DNA from: Haladaptatus sp. R4
GTDB lineage: Archaea > Halobacteriota > Halobacteria > Halobacteriales > Haladaptataceae
Assembly (NCBI RefSeq): GCF_001625445.1
Contig: NZ_LWHG01000033.1
Location: 62,001 to 126,000, forward strand
Direction: 5' to 3'
Length of the DNA: 64,000 bases
The notes below the pieces were generated by a model. The model was not told where the DNA came from. It did no database searches and saw nothing but the letters and a program-made list of their open reading frames with translations. Shown piece by piece: positions 56,623-64,000 of this stretch (its first letter is position 1; each line of letters opens with the position of its first letter). A program made the translations under genes and the position numbers.

Positions 56623-57042
56623 ATGAAGACAGAAGATGATGAGTTGGCAGAGGGGACAGTACTCCCAGATGAACGTGTAGCGAGATTCGAACAGCTACTG
56701 GATGAAAAATCCGAGTTAGAGCTCACGGAGACGATGGCCACGGTATGTGGAGTGCATATAGCAGCATTCCGTGTATATCTTACTGTCCTCGATCATCCAC
56801 ACAGCACGATCGCTGAAATCGCTGAAATTCTCGACCGTGATCAGAGTACGATTGGGAAGCAATTGCAACCGCTATACGAACAAGAATTGATCACTCGGTA
56901 TCCACGCACTGTCAGTAGTGGTGGTGTCAAGTATTTGCATGTCGCCCAACCACTTGCAGAAACCGCGGAGTGGCTACAGCAGGAGCTGGACAGATGGACA
57001 GATGCAGTCATGGCACAACTATCACGACTTGGCGCAAACTAG
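56623..57042 (+). CDS. Winged-helix transcriptional regulator
   Basis: 139 residues. An acidic start precedes a winged helix (GVHIAAFRVYLTVLDHPHST, then EIAEILDRDQSTIGKQLQPL, EQELITRYPRTVSSG) and a C-terminal helix (AEWLQQELDRWTDAVMAQLS) likely used for dimer formation. The domain resembles haloarchaeal TrmB/MarR-type DNA-binding modules without an effector domain. It lies 80 bp after the P450 remnant and before the partition region. Confidence 0.8.
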   Translation: MKTEDDELAEGTVLPDERVARFEQLLDEKSELELTETMATVCGVHIAAFRVYLTVLDHPHSTIAEIAEILDRDQSTIGKQLQPLYEQELITRYPRTVSSGGVKYLHVAQPLAETAEWLQQELDRWTDAVMAQLSRLGAN

Positions 57043-57277
57043 CATATGGGATGAGTTTGGGTATATCGCTAATTGCGATGTGAGAAGTTCGTTCGATGTT
57101 CACGATTCGTACGAATTGTAGAATTCGTTGGAACGGCTTTGTTTCCCACCATATAGATCGACGACAGAAGGCCTTGCACTGTGTGTTTCGTACGAATCGT
57201 ACAGTTCGCTAGAATAGCTTTGTTTCTTAGCCCCTGAACCGACGACGGCAAGTCTCGTAGCTTAAGATTCATGCGGG

Positions 57278-57375
57278 GTTTACGATTCGCGAGATTCGTA
57301 CGATTCGCACATAACGGTTATACAATCCTGATGTGATGGTTGGAACAGAGGCACTCGCGAAGTTTACGAACTTCG
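57278..57375 (+). repeat. 98-bp direct repeat, copy 1
   Basis: Starts GTTTACGATTCGCGAGATTC and ends AAGTTTACGAACTTCG. Matches 57520-57617 over the full 98 bp with about eight substitutions. The right end is a perfect 14-bp palindrome, CGAAGTTTACGAACTTCG-like, that could bind a dimeric partition protein. Confidence 0.75.
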
Positions 57376-57519
57376 CGATTCGTACGACTCGCAGAGTTCG
57401 TTAGGGGCAGCCCGTCTCTCAGCTTGTGAACTGGTGAAGGAGAGTTCGTACAATGAACCGTCTCGGGGTCAAGTCCCGAGGGTGAAGCCCGTACGCTCCA
57501 CCTGTAGACATCATACGAT

Positions 57520-57617
57520 GTTTACGATTCGCAAGATTCGTAAAGTTCGCACATAACGTTTATACAATTCTGATGAGATGGTTGGAACAGAGGCACTCGC
57601 GAAGTTTACGAACTTCG
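57520..57617 (+). repeat. 98-bp direct repeat, copy 2
   Basis: The second copy begins GTTTACGATTCGCAAGATTC and ends AAGTTTACGAACTTCG, 241 bp after the first. Located 74 bp upstream of the parA start codon, so it overlaps the probable parA promoter and could allow autoregulation. Confidence 0.75.
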
Positions 57618-57690
57618 AAATTCGAACGATGTTTGCGAATCGTACGAATCGAACGATTCGTAAAGTTCGTTGAGTGCAGGAGAATCAATC

Positions 57691-58572
57691 ATGGCAGAGG
57701 AACACAACAGCGGAGAACCGCGCGCCGTTTCTGTCGGCGTACTCAAAGGCGGGTTCGGAAAGACAACGACGGCGATTAACCTCGCTCGTGAATTAGCTCA
57801 TCGAAACGGCTCAGCTCTCGTTGTCGATCTCGACGACAACGGCCACATGAGCCAGAACCTCGGATTCACAGAGCAATATAGTGCCGAAGAGAATCACGCC
57901 GAAGCCGTTCTCATCAACGGTGAGGATCCAACGCAATACATTCAAACAGTAAGCCACGGGCTCGATATTTTCCCTGCCCACGTGCAACTCGAAGACGTCC
58001 AGAGTGGGCTAAAGGAAGCGACAATGGGAACGACACGACTCAAGGAAAATCTCATCAATCCGCTACTCGGTGATGAGTACGAGTACATTGTGGTCGACTG
58101 TCCAGCAAATCGAGGGAAGCTGAACGACAACGCAATGTACGCGACAGGGAATATCATCATCCCTCTTCGTGCAGAGAGTGGATACGAAAGCGGCCTCTCC
58201 AGTACCGTTCAACGGCTCGTTCAAGAAGCACGGCAGTACTTTGAGTTGAACATCCTCGCGATCACCCCCACAGACTTACAAGATCGCATCGACCAGGACA
58301 CGCGCGACCGTTCACTCCTCCAGGAGATCAATAATCGAGATGGTGTCTCGAAACTCGTGCCAAACTATGCGCGAATAACCAATGATGATTGGGAAGCGAT
58401 TGATCAAGGGAAACAAAACGGTAATCTGCCGGGGATTCGACACCGAGCGGCGATCGATCGTGCGCACGATGAAGGCGTTCCACTTCGAGACTACGATGAG
58501 ACGTGCGATCAGCTCGAAGCCTACGACGAACTCGCTCAAATCGTCGAGCAGGGGGAGGTGGTGCACAAATGA
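57691..58572 (+). CDS. parA: ParA/Soj-type partition ATPase
   Basis: 293 residues from the ATG at 57691; an upstream ATG-like start at 57670 lies in the repeat-rich leader. The deviant Walker A is VGVLKGGFGKTTTAIN, with the two lysines typical of MinD/ParA ATPases. SALVVDLDDNGHMSQNLGFT is the A' motif and YIVVDCPANRGKLNDNAMYA is Walker B. It should form dynamic filaments or gradients that segregate the replicon. It overlaps the next gene by 4 bp (ATGA). Repeats on both sides of the pair are candidate binding sites. Confidence 0.94.
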   Translation: MAEEHNSGEPRAVSVGVLKGGFGKTTTAINLARELAHRNGSALVVDLDDNGHMSQNLGFTEQYSAEENHAEAVLINGEDPTQYIQTVSHGLDIFPAHVQLEDVQSGLKEATMGTTRLKENLINPLLGDEYEYIVVDCPANRGKLNDNAMYATGNIIIPLRAESGYESGLSSTVQRLVQEARQYFELNILAITPTDLQDRIDQDTRDRSLLQEINNRDGVSKLVPNYARITNDDWEAIDQGKQNGNLPGIRHRAAIDRAHDEGVPLRDYDETCDQLEAYDELAQIVEQGEVVHK

Positions 58573-58973
58573 CGGCGTTTGACGATCTCGAAAATGCAAT
58601 CAACGAGGGAACAGAGAAGACATCAACTTCGAGCAGTTCGTCCGAGTCTGGCGCTTCGGAAGAATCGCAAACATCGAACGAATCTCACGACTCGCGCGAA
58701 TCGAAAACATCTGAAGAACCAAAAGATCCACGAAAAACACCTGCATTCGAGTTTTCTTCAAATCTACGACGGAGTATCTACACACGCGAAGAATCGTGGC
58801 AGGAGTTTGAGGATGCACGAGATCTAGAGATGACGCGAGAGTTGCGGGATGCTGGTGTCCGGAATCACGAGAGTCGTGAAGTTCACGATGCGATGGTTCG
58901 GTTAGCGGCGGAAAATCCCGAAAAGATGGCACAGTTAATCCTTGACGCACGCGGTGTCGACGAAGAACAGTAG
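58569..58973 (+). CDS. Putative ParA partner (centromere-binding adaptor)
   Basis: 134 residues. A Ser/Glu/Thr-rich, probably disordered region (about 15-57) is followed by KTPAFEFSSNLRRSIYTREE and a helical C-terminus with ESREVHDAMVRLAAENPEKM. The 4-bp overlap with parA is the usual gene order of a partition operon, where the second gene binds the centromere. No HTH or ribbon-helix-helix fold can be proven by eye, although the KTPAFEF and SIYTREE region could be a short ribbon-helix-helix or arm motif. Confidence 0.7.
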   Translation: MTAFDDLENAINEGTEKTSTSSSSSESGASEESQTSNESHDSRESKTSEEPKDPRKTPAFEFSSNLRRSIYTREESWQEFEDARDLEMTRELRDAGVRNHESREVHDAMVRLAAENPEKMAQLILDARGVDEEQ

Positions 58974-59170
58974 CTAAGGGAGTGCTTCAGCACATTCCAA
59001 AAGATCGTCCTCAGTCTGACAGATACACAGACTATCTGCTTCATCTAGCATATCAAAGATTGCAGTCTGCATTCCATGATACGGCTTCTCGAGATTGACA
59101 TTCGTATCAACTTCATCAGGATCGATGTCGGAAAAGTCACGCTGGAAAACAGCGTCTTTGTGAAATACCC
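58974..59170 (-). pseudogene. C-terminal gene remnant, unknown family
   Basis: One reverse frame yields about 65 residues of protein-like sequence (FQRDFSDIDPDEVDTNVNLE, MQTAIFDMLDEADSLCICQT) ending at a TAG at 58974-58976, directly abutting the stop of the partition gene. No start codon or N-terminal domain is found before 59170, so it is probably a truncated gene. Confidence 0.4.
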
Positions 59171-59248
59171 TACCCTACACGCTCGCTGACGCTCCCCTCT
59201 TAAGGCGGACGAGAATGTCACAGTCGTTTAACCGTTTGGATGTTTAAA

Positions 59249-59299
59249 CATCGTACGATTCTACCGACTCGTACGATTCGTGCGAATCTCAAACATCGC
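59249..59299. repeat. Downstream centromere-like repeats
   Basis: About 50 bp with ATCGTACGATTC, CTCGTACGATTCGTGCGAAT and AAACATCG. The motif family is the one upstream of parA. Its place just after the partition operon supports a two-sided centromere. Confidence 0.6.
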
Positions 59300-59462
59300 A
59301 GCAGTCAGGAAATTTGCGAAATACGCTTACTACCAGTTCTCGCCCGATCTGACGGAGAGCAAATTCGGGAACAAAACTATTCGAAGTTAGTATTGGATAC
59401 TAACTTCGGATGGTATAGATTATTTGAACCATCAACAGCTTTCTTGAATGTTCAACGTAGGA

Positions 59463-60725
59463 TCAGCTGCTTTGAAGATCAGACACGATACTCTGCTTCG
59501 TTTTTGGCTGTTCAAATACAGTATCGAGAACCATATCCGAGTCGCGCAAGAGGGAGTGTTCCCGATAGCTCCCTTCACTCTTGCCACCACCGGTATGCCG
59601 ATTTTCAGTGACGTCACTAAAGGCCCATTCTTTCAACAGTTCCAGCACTCGCTGGTGACTGAGGGGATTAGTTCCCTCACTCTTACAGACGTCTTCATAC
59701 ACACGGTAGATCTCGCCTGTGCTGAATGCTTGTTTCAGGGAAGATTTCTGTAGATAGGCGAGCGCGAATAGGACATATTTCGAATGGGGAGTCGATCCCC
59801 GAATTAGCTCTTGGAACCGCGACATTTCCGCATAATCCTGTGCTGCATCAACATGCTCCTCTGTGACACTAGAATCGCCATTCCGAGCAGCCAGCTTTCC
59901 AGCGCTCGAAAGAATTTCAATTGCTTTCCGTGCGTCACCATGCTCACGCGCGGCAAGCGCTGCTACGCGTGGGATAACACCATCTTCGAGAACATCGGGT
60001 TGGAATGCATCTCGCCGTTTACTCAGAATTTCACGGATTTGCCCGGCATCATACGGATGGAAGACGAGTTCATCGTCTTGGAAGCTGGATTTCACCCGCT
60101 CGTCAAGATTCTCGTAATACTCGATTTTGTTGCTGATTGCAACGACACCGATATAACAATCCGTTTTACCACTCTCTTCGGCTCTCGAGAGTTTAAATAA
60201 TATCTCATCGTCACCCAGTTTGTCAATCTCGTCGATAATAGCAATGAGAACATCAGCATCGTCAAGGAGCGTATAGAGATAATCCATATACTCACTAGAT
60301 CCGATCCCCTTATCTGGAATATTGAGTGAGCGGGTAGACTGGAATTCAGCTTGTTGGGAGAGAGACCGAGCGACGCGAGTAATAGTGTTTGCTTGATCGC
60401 AATCAATATAGGCAGAAATGAGAGAGACGTCGTTAGTTTGGGCGATTGCTCGAACACGTCCAGTGACGTGTCGGGAGACTAGCGATTTTCCTGATCCTGT
60501 TTTCCCGTATACAATCGCATTTCCGGGTGGATCGCCGAAAACACCTGGTTGGAGCAACTCTTCTATATCTTTGATTTCCGCGTCGCGACCGACGATGCGG
60601 TCGCTGTCAGGAACATGACCGATTCGAAGTAGCTCACGACGCGCGAAAATAGAGTCATTACGCTTGGTAAGTGGATCGTCAGCGAGGTCTTCTGGATCCG
60701 GCGTGGGGATAGGATCGTTTGGCAC
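59463..60725 (-). CDS. Orc1/Cdc6 family replication initiator
   Basis: About 420 residues. No ATG is available; the GTG at 60723-60725 gives a normal N-terminus (PNDPIPTPDPEDLADDPLTK). The AAA+ domain has RIVGRDAEIKDIEELLQPGV, Walker A IVYGKTGSGKS, Walker B VLIAIIDEIDKLG and sensor VVAISNKIEYY. The lid (HGDARKAIEILSSAGKLAAR) and a C-terminal winged helix follow. It is divergent from a cluster of canonical origin boxes at 60768-61183, the nearest only about 45 bp upstream of the start, so it is the obvious initiator for that origin. Confidence 0.94.
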   Translation of the reverse strand: MPNDPIPTPDPEDLADDPLTKRNDSIFARRELLRIGHVPDSDRIVGRDAEIKDIEELLQPGVFGDPPGNAIVYGKTGSGKSLVSRHVTGRVRAIAQTNDVSLISAYIDCDQANTITRVARSLSQQAEFQSTRSLNIPDKGIGSSEYMDYLYTLLDDADVLIAIIDEIDKLGDDEILFKLSRAEESGKTDCYIGVVAISNKIEYYENLDERVKSSFQDDELVFHPYDAGQIREILSKRRDAFQPDVLEDGVIPRVAALAAREHGDARKAIEILSSAGKLAARNGDSSVTEEHVDAAQDYAEMSRFQELIRGSTPHSKYVLFALAYLQKSSLKQAFSTGEIYRVYEDVCKSEGTNPLSHQRVLELLKEWAFSDVTENRHTGGGKSEGSYREHSLLRDSDMVLDTVFEQPKTKQSIVSDLQSS

Positions 60726-60767
60726 GTTATTACAACCCTTCAAGAAGGAGCATCTTAGTTCTACCGC

Positions 60768-61183
60768 ACCCCCGGTTTTCAGTGAAAAGCGTAGAACGAG
60801 TATCGAGAGCGTGTAAATATGGGCGGTTGGTAGTCAAAAAGCGACGAGAGACACCCCTCATTTTCAGTGAAACCAGTCGAGTGAGTAGCTACTTGATTCG
60901 ACCTGAACACGAGAACTTAAAAGCGGAGAAGTGACTTCATTGTCAGACACCACGTTTTCAGTGTAAAACACGACGACTACAACCGATTTTCACCCGCATA
61001 ACCACGTCACCAATATTGCTTCTACCCATAATTACTTATTATACTTTCTAGTTAAACTAGTAGAGTAGTTGAGAATCAGCTAGCGGTTCTGTTTTCACTG
61101 AAAACGAGGGGTCTCTCTAGTGGAATGCGTTCGATTTTCACGAGAGTAGAAACCGACTCCTGTTTTCACTGAAAACGAGGGGT
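60768..61183. other. Candidate replication origin with inverted ORB repeats
   Basis: Two perfect 22-bp boxes on the plus strand (61091-61112 and 61162-61183, TTTTCACTGAAAACGAGGGG) face three minus-strand boxes on the left: 60768-60788, 60853-60872 and the weaker 60948-60967 (each with TTTTCAGTGAAA or a close variant preceded by a C-rich run). Between lies an AT-rich block at about 61005-61075, the likely unwinding element. Core CACTGAAAACGAGGGGT closely matches the established haloarchaeal ORB. Inverted boxes around an AT-rich element next to orc1/cdc6 is the standard archaeal origin layout. Confidence 0.88.
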
Positions 61184-62983: not shown

Positions 62984-64000
62984 ATGGGCTACTTTGACGA
63001 TGATGGGTTTCTCGATGAATACATCATCAAGGATCGGAGCGTCCTGAAACCGGAATACAAACCCAAGAAACTGGAAGAACGAGACGAGGAACTCGAAGAA
63101 TACGTGAAGCTCCTTCGACCACTGTTGAAGGGTTGGGATCTCGACAATATCTTTCTCTATGGACACTCGGGTGTTGGCAAGACCGTTGCAACCCGGACCC
63201 TGCTCCCCGACCTTCGAGGGACTGCTGAGGAGCAGGATATCGATGTCGATCTGCTTGAGATCAATTGTTCGTCAGCAAATACCTCGTATCAGTCGACAAT
63301 CGAACTCATCAATGAGGCACGGAGTCCCGAGTACCCACTGACGACACTCGACCTCGATAAACCTGAATTAAGTAAGACCGGCTACCCTGCTGAACAGGTC
63401 TACGATGAGCTTTTCGATGACCTCAACGAGGCTGCGGACAACATCATCCTCGTCCTTGACGAAGTGAATACGCTCGGCAGTGATAGTGAACTCCTCTATC
63501 AGCTCACGCGGGCTCAAACGATGCACAAACTCGAGGCTGAACTCTGTATTATCGGCATCAGCAACGACTTCAATTTCAGAGATGACCTTCCTGCTCGGGT
63601 GAAAGACACGCTCTGTGAAACCGAGCTTCACTTTCCCGCGTACGAACAGAGCGATCTCATTTCAATTCTGTCCCGCCGAGCCGAACAAGCGTTCTATGAG
63701 GACACGACTGAGACAGGGGTTATCGAACTGTGTGCAGCACTGGCATCTCGCGATCGTGGTTCTGCCCGTCAAGCAATTCGGCTGCTGCGTAAAGCGGCCG
63801 AACTTGCGGAGAACGAAGCCGTAGAATCGGATGATCTCGATTGCATCGAAGAGCAGCATGTCCGTGACGCTGAGGAGATCATCGAGCGAAAACTGGTGAC
63901 TACTGGGATTCGAAAGCTCACCACCCACCGAAAGTACGTCTTGCTCGCTGTAACGAATCTCGCTGCCCAGGGAAAGACGCCTGCACAGACGAGGGACATC
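62984..64000 (+). CDS. Orc1/Cdc6 family replication initiator (3' end outside window)
   Basis: 339 residues are visible from the ATG at 62984, and the frame runs off the right edge. The AAA+ domain has RSVLKPEYKPKKLEERDEEL, Walker A FLYGHSGVGKT, Walker B IILVLDEVNTLG and sensor-1 CIIGISNDFNF. The lid has DRGSARQAIRLLRKAAELAE. The final winged helix should be beyond the window. The first of the plus-strand motifs of the third repeat family ends only 33 bp before its ATG. Confidence 0.93.
   Translation, partial: MGYFDDDGFLDEYIIKDRSVLKPEYKPKKLEERDEELEEYVKLLRPLLKGWDLDNIFLYGHSGVGKTVATRTLLPDLRGTAEEQDIDVDLLEINCSSANTSYQSTIELINEARSPEYPLTTLDLDKPELSKTGYPAEQVYDELFDDLNEAADNIILVLDEVNTLGSDSELLYQLTRAQTMHKLEAELCIIGISNDFNFRDDLPARVKDTLCETELHFPAYEQSDLISILSRRAEQAFYEDTTETGVIELCAALASRDRGSARQAIRLLRKAAELAENEAVESDDLDCIEEQHVRDAEEIIERKLVTTGIRKLTTHRKYVLLAVTNLAAQGKTPAQTRDI

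Follow-up and report, generated by a model that had tools for sequence, protein, structure and literature searches.

Tandem short palindromes are known from the met-box operators of the bacterial regulator MetJ, which are bound cooperatively and have an 8-bp period. In plasmid partition, the parS of pSM19035 consists of six sites of 7–10 contiguous repeats, of which at least four contiguous ones are needed to activate ParA, and it serves as both operator and centromere (PMC9499535). Two further papers describe archaeal par sites, those of Sulfolobales (PMC5120986, PMC12284271): the sites of SegB, 13-bp TCTAGASTCTAGA motifs, are dispersed around the chromosome (PMC12284271), and in the AspA-ParB-ParA cassette of pNOB8 the winged-HTH protein AspA binds a 23-bp palindrome (PMC5120986). 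We found no description of a haloarchaeal par site in the open PubMed Central literature. Haloarchaea are rich in megaplasmids and amenable to genetics. Here we analyze a 64-kb stretch (the window) of a 187.8-kb contig of Haladaptatus sp. R4, in which a parA gene and its small partner gene are accompanied by a 9-bp repeat array. From its sequence, we propose that this array is a centromere-like site belonging to a partition system found across the haloarchaea, a variant that appears new within the open PubMed Central literature although its kind is known.

The array and its cassette

The product of parA has a deviant Walker A motif and no N-terminal HTH, as in small type I ParAs, and matches ParA/Soj structures in a PDB search; it is 93–96% identical to the ParA of cassettes on Haladaptatus plasmids. 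A small partner gene lies in the same operon, as in pSM19035, and the overlap of the two genes noted in the initial annotation is correct at 4 nt (58569–58572). An Rfam search gave no match.

The same annotation had reported dense motifs around parA, and the cluster is real. Exact matches to TTCGTACGA on both strands number eight in the window, seven of them at 57106–57648, and with one mismatch there are 37, including 13 in 57050–57690 and six in 59200–59320. Across the whole genome (4.9 Mb) 66 matches are scattered, and the par locus is the sole dense cluster. By autocorrelation the period is exactly 9 bp: lags 9, 18, 27 and 36 have z scores of 5.6, 5.4, 2.4 and 3.9, respectively, and lags 7, 8, 10 and 11 show no signal. 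The unit is a degenerate odd 9-bp palindrome, ACGAWTCGT, and TTCGTACGA is therefore the junction of two units. Six clusters of units, each approximately 30–90 bp long and spaced by approximately 100 bp, flank the parA TATA box between 57074 and 57685. Most blocks span 40–90 bp, that is, about 5–10 units, so that at least four contiguous short repeats lie over the par promoter. The features of the locus are as follows, with block limits in the window taken from the posterior of a cyclic 9-state HMM.

57074–57132, + strand: array block 1, TTCGATGTT CACGATTCG TACGAATTG TAGAATTCG (HMM posterior; profile E 1.2e-23)
57187–57215, + strand: array block 2 (HMM posterior; profile)
57257–57310, + strand: array block 3, within the older promoter-segment copy (HMM posterior; profile)
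57269–57387, + strand: older copy of a 119-nt promoter-proximal duplication, TATA mutated to GGTTATA (89% to 57511–57629)
57355–57404, + strand: array block 4 (HMM posterior; profile)
57510–57552, + strand: array block 5, directly 5′ of the parA TATA box (HMM posterior; profile)
57511–57629, + strand: promoter-proximal copy of the 119-nt duplication (89% to 57269–57387)
57559–57564, + strand: putative TATA element of parA (TTTATA, part of CACATAACGTTTATACAAT), located between blocks 5 and 6 and conserved throughout Haladaptatus
57597–57685, + strand: array block 6, presumed 5′ leader of parA (HMM posterior; profile)
57691–58572, + strand: parA, 293 aa, deviant Walker A KGGFGKTT, no N-terminal HTH (Pfam AAA_31 3.7e-28)
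58569–58973, + strand: presumed centromere-binding partner, 134 aa, with an N-terminal FDDL motif, a disordered Ser/Glu linker and a conserved C-terminal domain
58628–58727 (about), − strand: gene-internal array block, encoding the (E/D)-S-X repeats of the partner linker (block profile best on the minus strand)
59238–59300, − strand: downstream array block, in the opposite orientation to the upstream ones (profile E 7.2e-8; HMM posterior)

The array hence begins near 57074 and not at 57108, where it had been placed initially, and the two near-identical 98-bp repeats of that description are the two copies of the 119-nt promoter segment, not a repeat unit. The segment occurs once in six of seven Haladaptatus relatives and has a decayed second copy in the nearest one, G090; with respect to the repeat family, its duplication is an incidental feature. 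A 71-bp stretch with the hairpin CTCGGGGTCAAGTCCCGAG, situated at 57440–57510 between the promoter copies of the window, is 86% conserved in G090, and its core of approximately 28 nt recurs dispersed in most Haladaptatus genomes. This stretch looks like a mobile-element relic and presumably resembles an IS200/605-like end.

The array adjoins a TrmB/Lrs14-like HTH gene (56623–57042) that is intact in the window. On the other side, 0.5 kb downstream of the operon, orc1/cdc6 lies on the opposite strand (59463–60728) and is adjoined by TTTTCACTGAAAACGAGGGG repeats at 60768–61183, which are inverted around an AT-rich stretch, are unrelated to the 9-bp array and probably represent a replication origin. 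A second Orc1/Cdc6-like reading frame, with 33% identity to the first Orc1, is found at 63107–63961.

Conservation across Haladaptatus and other haloarchaea

Related plasmids, named by the initial annotation as the place to look for the repeats, do carry them: the array is present on seven other Haladaptatus plasmids (eight including the window), and its 9-bp register extends across many haloarchaeal genera. Autocorrelation gives a 9-bp period in the window and six other Haladaptatus plasmids, and the eighth plasmid, that of G090 (L047), agrees. A larger-repeat profile of approximately 91 bp is found in 3–7 copies upstream of parA in all eight.

The partner family occurs in 149 of the 292 sampled haloarchaeal genomes and in 52 of 76 genera, and it stands beside parA in 54 of 57 ParA loci examined. 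Upstream of parA in other genera the 9-bp register recurs with different letters, such as ACCTNAGGT in Halobacterium and Halolamina, CTANNNTAG in Halorubrum and Halobellus and ACAANTTGT in Halorussus, and others also, these unit models being approximate per-locus fits. Among periods from 6 to 13, period 9 is the best in all 19 loci tested.

A naive 9-state HMM score is inflated by codon periodicity in GC-rich coding DNA (controls up to 119), and we therefore replaced it with a period-3-robust statistic, D = LLR(9) − max(LLR(6), LLR(12)). In 274 control segments D has a mean of −6.6, a 99th percentile of 7.6 and a maximum of 18.3, and the control with this maximum itself adjoins another ParA of the Haladaptatus sp. 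R4 genome and has a 9-bp period. D lies above the control maximum in 41 of 57 cassettes and above the control 99th percentile in approximately 45 of 50 distinct partner-bearing cassettes (by our count). All 18 out-of-sample cassettes have D values of 9–66, and every parA-body control is negative. Approximately five of the 50 cassettes show no array within 600 bp, among them L034 (D 0.6), the second cassette of Haladaptatus sp. R4. ParAs of this genome without the partner have no upstream 9-bp array (D = 5.2 for L035, −62.9 for L036 and −4.6 for L037).

Two of these ParA cassettes have repeats of their own. The unrelated L037 (G000:C30) has a 9-bp-period array downstream, approximately 760–1620 from the parA start, with a unit of about GTCTTAGAT. 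The linker-coding DNA of its partner fits GTCTTAGAT better than 497 of 500 synonymous recodings do, and L037 may be another example of a binding-protein gene that contains an array. L036 (G000:C10) is a third ParA cassette, with a 130-aa partner of its own. A 12-bp lattice (GGATAGATATCCAGA...) lies to either side of its operon, approximately 350 bp upstream and 1240–1340 downstream of the parA start.

The partner protein and the array inside its gene

The product of the gene at 58569 has no match in Pfam, NCBIfam or the PDB, and profile searches at E up to 10 return chance matches only. The N-terminal CTPase/HTH domain of ParB is absent from it according to Pfam and NCBIfam, and Foldseek finds no PDB match with either the full-length or the domain model, nor did a second structural comparison yield one. 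AlphaFold2 models the conserved domain, as a monomer and from 48 aligned domains, as an extended segment with helices at 22–42, 50–63 and 65–76 (pLDDT 89.8, pTM 0.74), a model that is compatible with a ribbon-helix-helix monomer, which is a guess at the fold.

Across loci, unit distances and the distances of the partner C-terminal domains are correlated (r = 0.654), a value reached by none of 5,000 permutations (permutation maximum 0.241). The partial correlation of unit and partner given ParA is 0.534 (0 of 2,000 permutations), and that of unit and ParA given the partner is 0.011. Because the unit sequence tracks the partner, and does not track ParA once the partner is accounted for, these comparisons point to the partner as the protein that binds the array. 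Co-divergence of unit and partner is also expected from co-inheritance, but the ParA partial correlation argues against that as the whole cause. The partner segment around the conserved QxxIYxR, modelled as extended, explains the unit sequence better than the helices do, and we take this as evidence for DNA contact by the extended segment. Co-resident cassettes share a unit in none of 15 within-genome pairs, compared with 12% of between-genome pairs; with approximately 1.8 expected, this is not significant in a sample that is too small, and it is suggestive in that it fits an avoidance of incompatibility.

The array continues inside the partner gene. A block profile built solely from upstream regions also hits the DNA that encodes the partner linker. 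It does so in each of the eight Haladaptatus plasmids, with E values down to approximately 1e-7 and in most cases with the better match on the minus strand. The linker encoded there is a repeated (E/D)-S-X, for example GAA TCG CAA, and its indels are largely multiples of three residues. A three-residue peptide repeat alone yields a 9-bp DNA period, and acidic Ser-rich linkers are frequent among haloarchaea; the gene-internal periodicity could accordingly be a by-product of the peptide repeat and codon bias that owes nothing to protein–DNA binding. We regard this as rather unlikely, given how synonymous recodings of the linker behave. With local codon usage, only 0–6 of 300 recodings per species reach the observed linker score in the eight Haladaptatus species, and with a unit model trained on the upstream array of the window only, none of 200 per species reaches the observed fit in any of the eight, although these are tests on related plasmids and not eight independent events. 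Moreover, partners in other genera have neither the linker array nor the (E/D)-S-X peptide repeat. Because synonymous recoding destroys the array match, and array and peptide repeat are both missing from the partner genes of the other genera, selection in Haladaptatus appears to act on the linker stretch at both the DNA and the protein level. The gene-internal block is an unusually clean candidate for DNA-level selection that shapes a disordered protein segment.

The site had been described initially as a two-sided centromere repeat. The downstream cluster on which the two-sidedness depends is real, but it is found only in the window and G090, with a weak match in L050, and cannot be taken as general. 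The layout is instead upstream, gene-internal and downstream, with the upstream part nearly universal and the gene-internal part constant in Haladaptatus. What holds of the centromere reading is that the array is conserved with the cassette and that its unit covaries with the partner; the 98-bp repeats are incidental to it.

Proposed function and known partition systems

On this sequence evidence, 57074–57685 is probably the parS-like centromere of a type I partition cassette and at the same time its operator. The 58569 product would bind contiguous 9-bp palindromic units as a dimer, cooperatively and via its C-terminal domain, and several bound, separated clusters would gather into one partition complex. 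The disordered acidic arm of the partner and its conserved FDDL end would then reach ParA on the nucleoid, leading to plasmid segregation. Because the clusters flank the parA TATA box, we also infer that partner binding on both sides of it represses the operon. In Haladaptatus, where the array continues into the DNA that encodes the linker of its own binder, this stretch would be dual-use.

The flanking of the TATA box would also fit if the array were only a transcriptional operator for autoregulation of parA and its partner, with the segregation site elsewhere or absent. Such a restricted role is quite unlikely, given that clusters occur far from the promoter, up to approximately 600–750 bp upstream, within the partner gene and, in the window, downstream of the operon as well, and that the number of separated clusters exceeds what a simple operator needs. 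Furthermore, in pSM19035 the same sites do both jobs (PMC9499535). With the locus on a plasmid and orc1 only 0.5 kb away, the repeats might also be replication iterons bound by the neighbouring Orc1/Cdc6. However, orc1 is accompanied by separate repeats that are unrelated to the array, the annotation of H. halobius shows no Orc1 within 6 kb of parA, the array goes with parA and the partner, and the Orc1s neighbouring the cassettes of relatives are different paralogs or undetected. As the unit sequence moreover tracks the partner, we hold a role as iterons to be very improbable. The remaining candidate reader is the upstream HTH protein, by analogy with AspA in pNOB8: its gene adjoins the array, and the gene or its remnants are present in all eight Haladaptatus plasmids. 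However, the gene is frameshifted or contains stops in H. salinisoli, DYF46 and G090, and in other genera that retain the 9-bp register no copy of it was found next to the cassette. Because these three relatives keep the array intact with a broken gene, binding of the array by the HTH protein is exceedingly improbable.

The reading of the array as centromere and operator can be widened, and on the wider version we are evenly divided. Haloarchaeal plasmids would share a partition system with a fixed 9-bp palindromic register, the letters of which diversify with the binding-protein family so that each replicon has its own address. In one genus the centromere would have spread into the coding sequence of its own binder, and the (Glu/Asp)-Ser-X linker would be a side effect of that spread. 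With a conserved register, diverse letters and a single cognate protein family present in about half of the sampled haloarchaeal genomes, such a centromere would offer ready orthogonal protein–DNA pairs, and hence a means to test the evolution of centromere specificity and plasmid incompatibility.

Compared with described systems, the array may be likened to the MetJ met-boxes in its tandem short palindromes, and the met-boxes differ in their 8-bp period and in serving a bacterial regulator. The pNOB8 cassette is likewise an archaeal plasmid partition cassette with a site upstream, but the gene order and the binder differ, with the partner downstream of parA here, and three relatives carry the upstream HTH gene in broken form. 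SegAB of Sulfolobales has in common with this locus an archaeal ParA-type ATPase, a small partner, the gene for which starts within the end of the ATPase gene, and palindromic sites upstream (PMC5120986). Here, in contrast, long tandem 9-bp arrays with the unit ACGAWTCGT, not 13-bp TCTAGASTCTAGA, lie at one locus, and a profile search of PDB sequences found no similarity of the partner to SegB. The delta-omega system of pSM19035 (ParA and a ribbon-helix-helix ParB) is alike in its small ParA, the small partner in the par locus and the contiguous short repeats overlapping promoters. Its units are 7-bp non-palindromic WATCACW, whereas those described here are 9-bp palindromes; in addition, the partner here is without detectable homology to any solved structure and the Haladaptatus array also lies inside the binder gene. 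Judged by its anatomy, the array most likely works like the parS of pSM19035, except that its units are 9-bp palindromes and its presumed binder belongs to an undescribed family.
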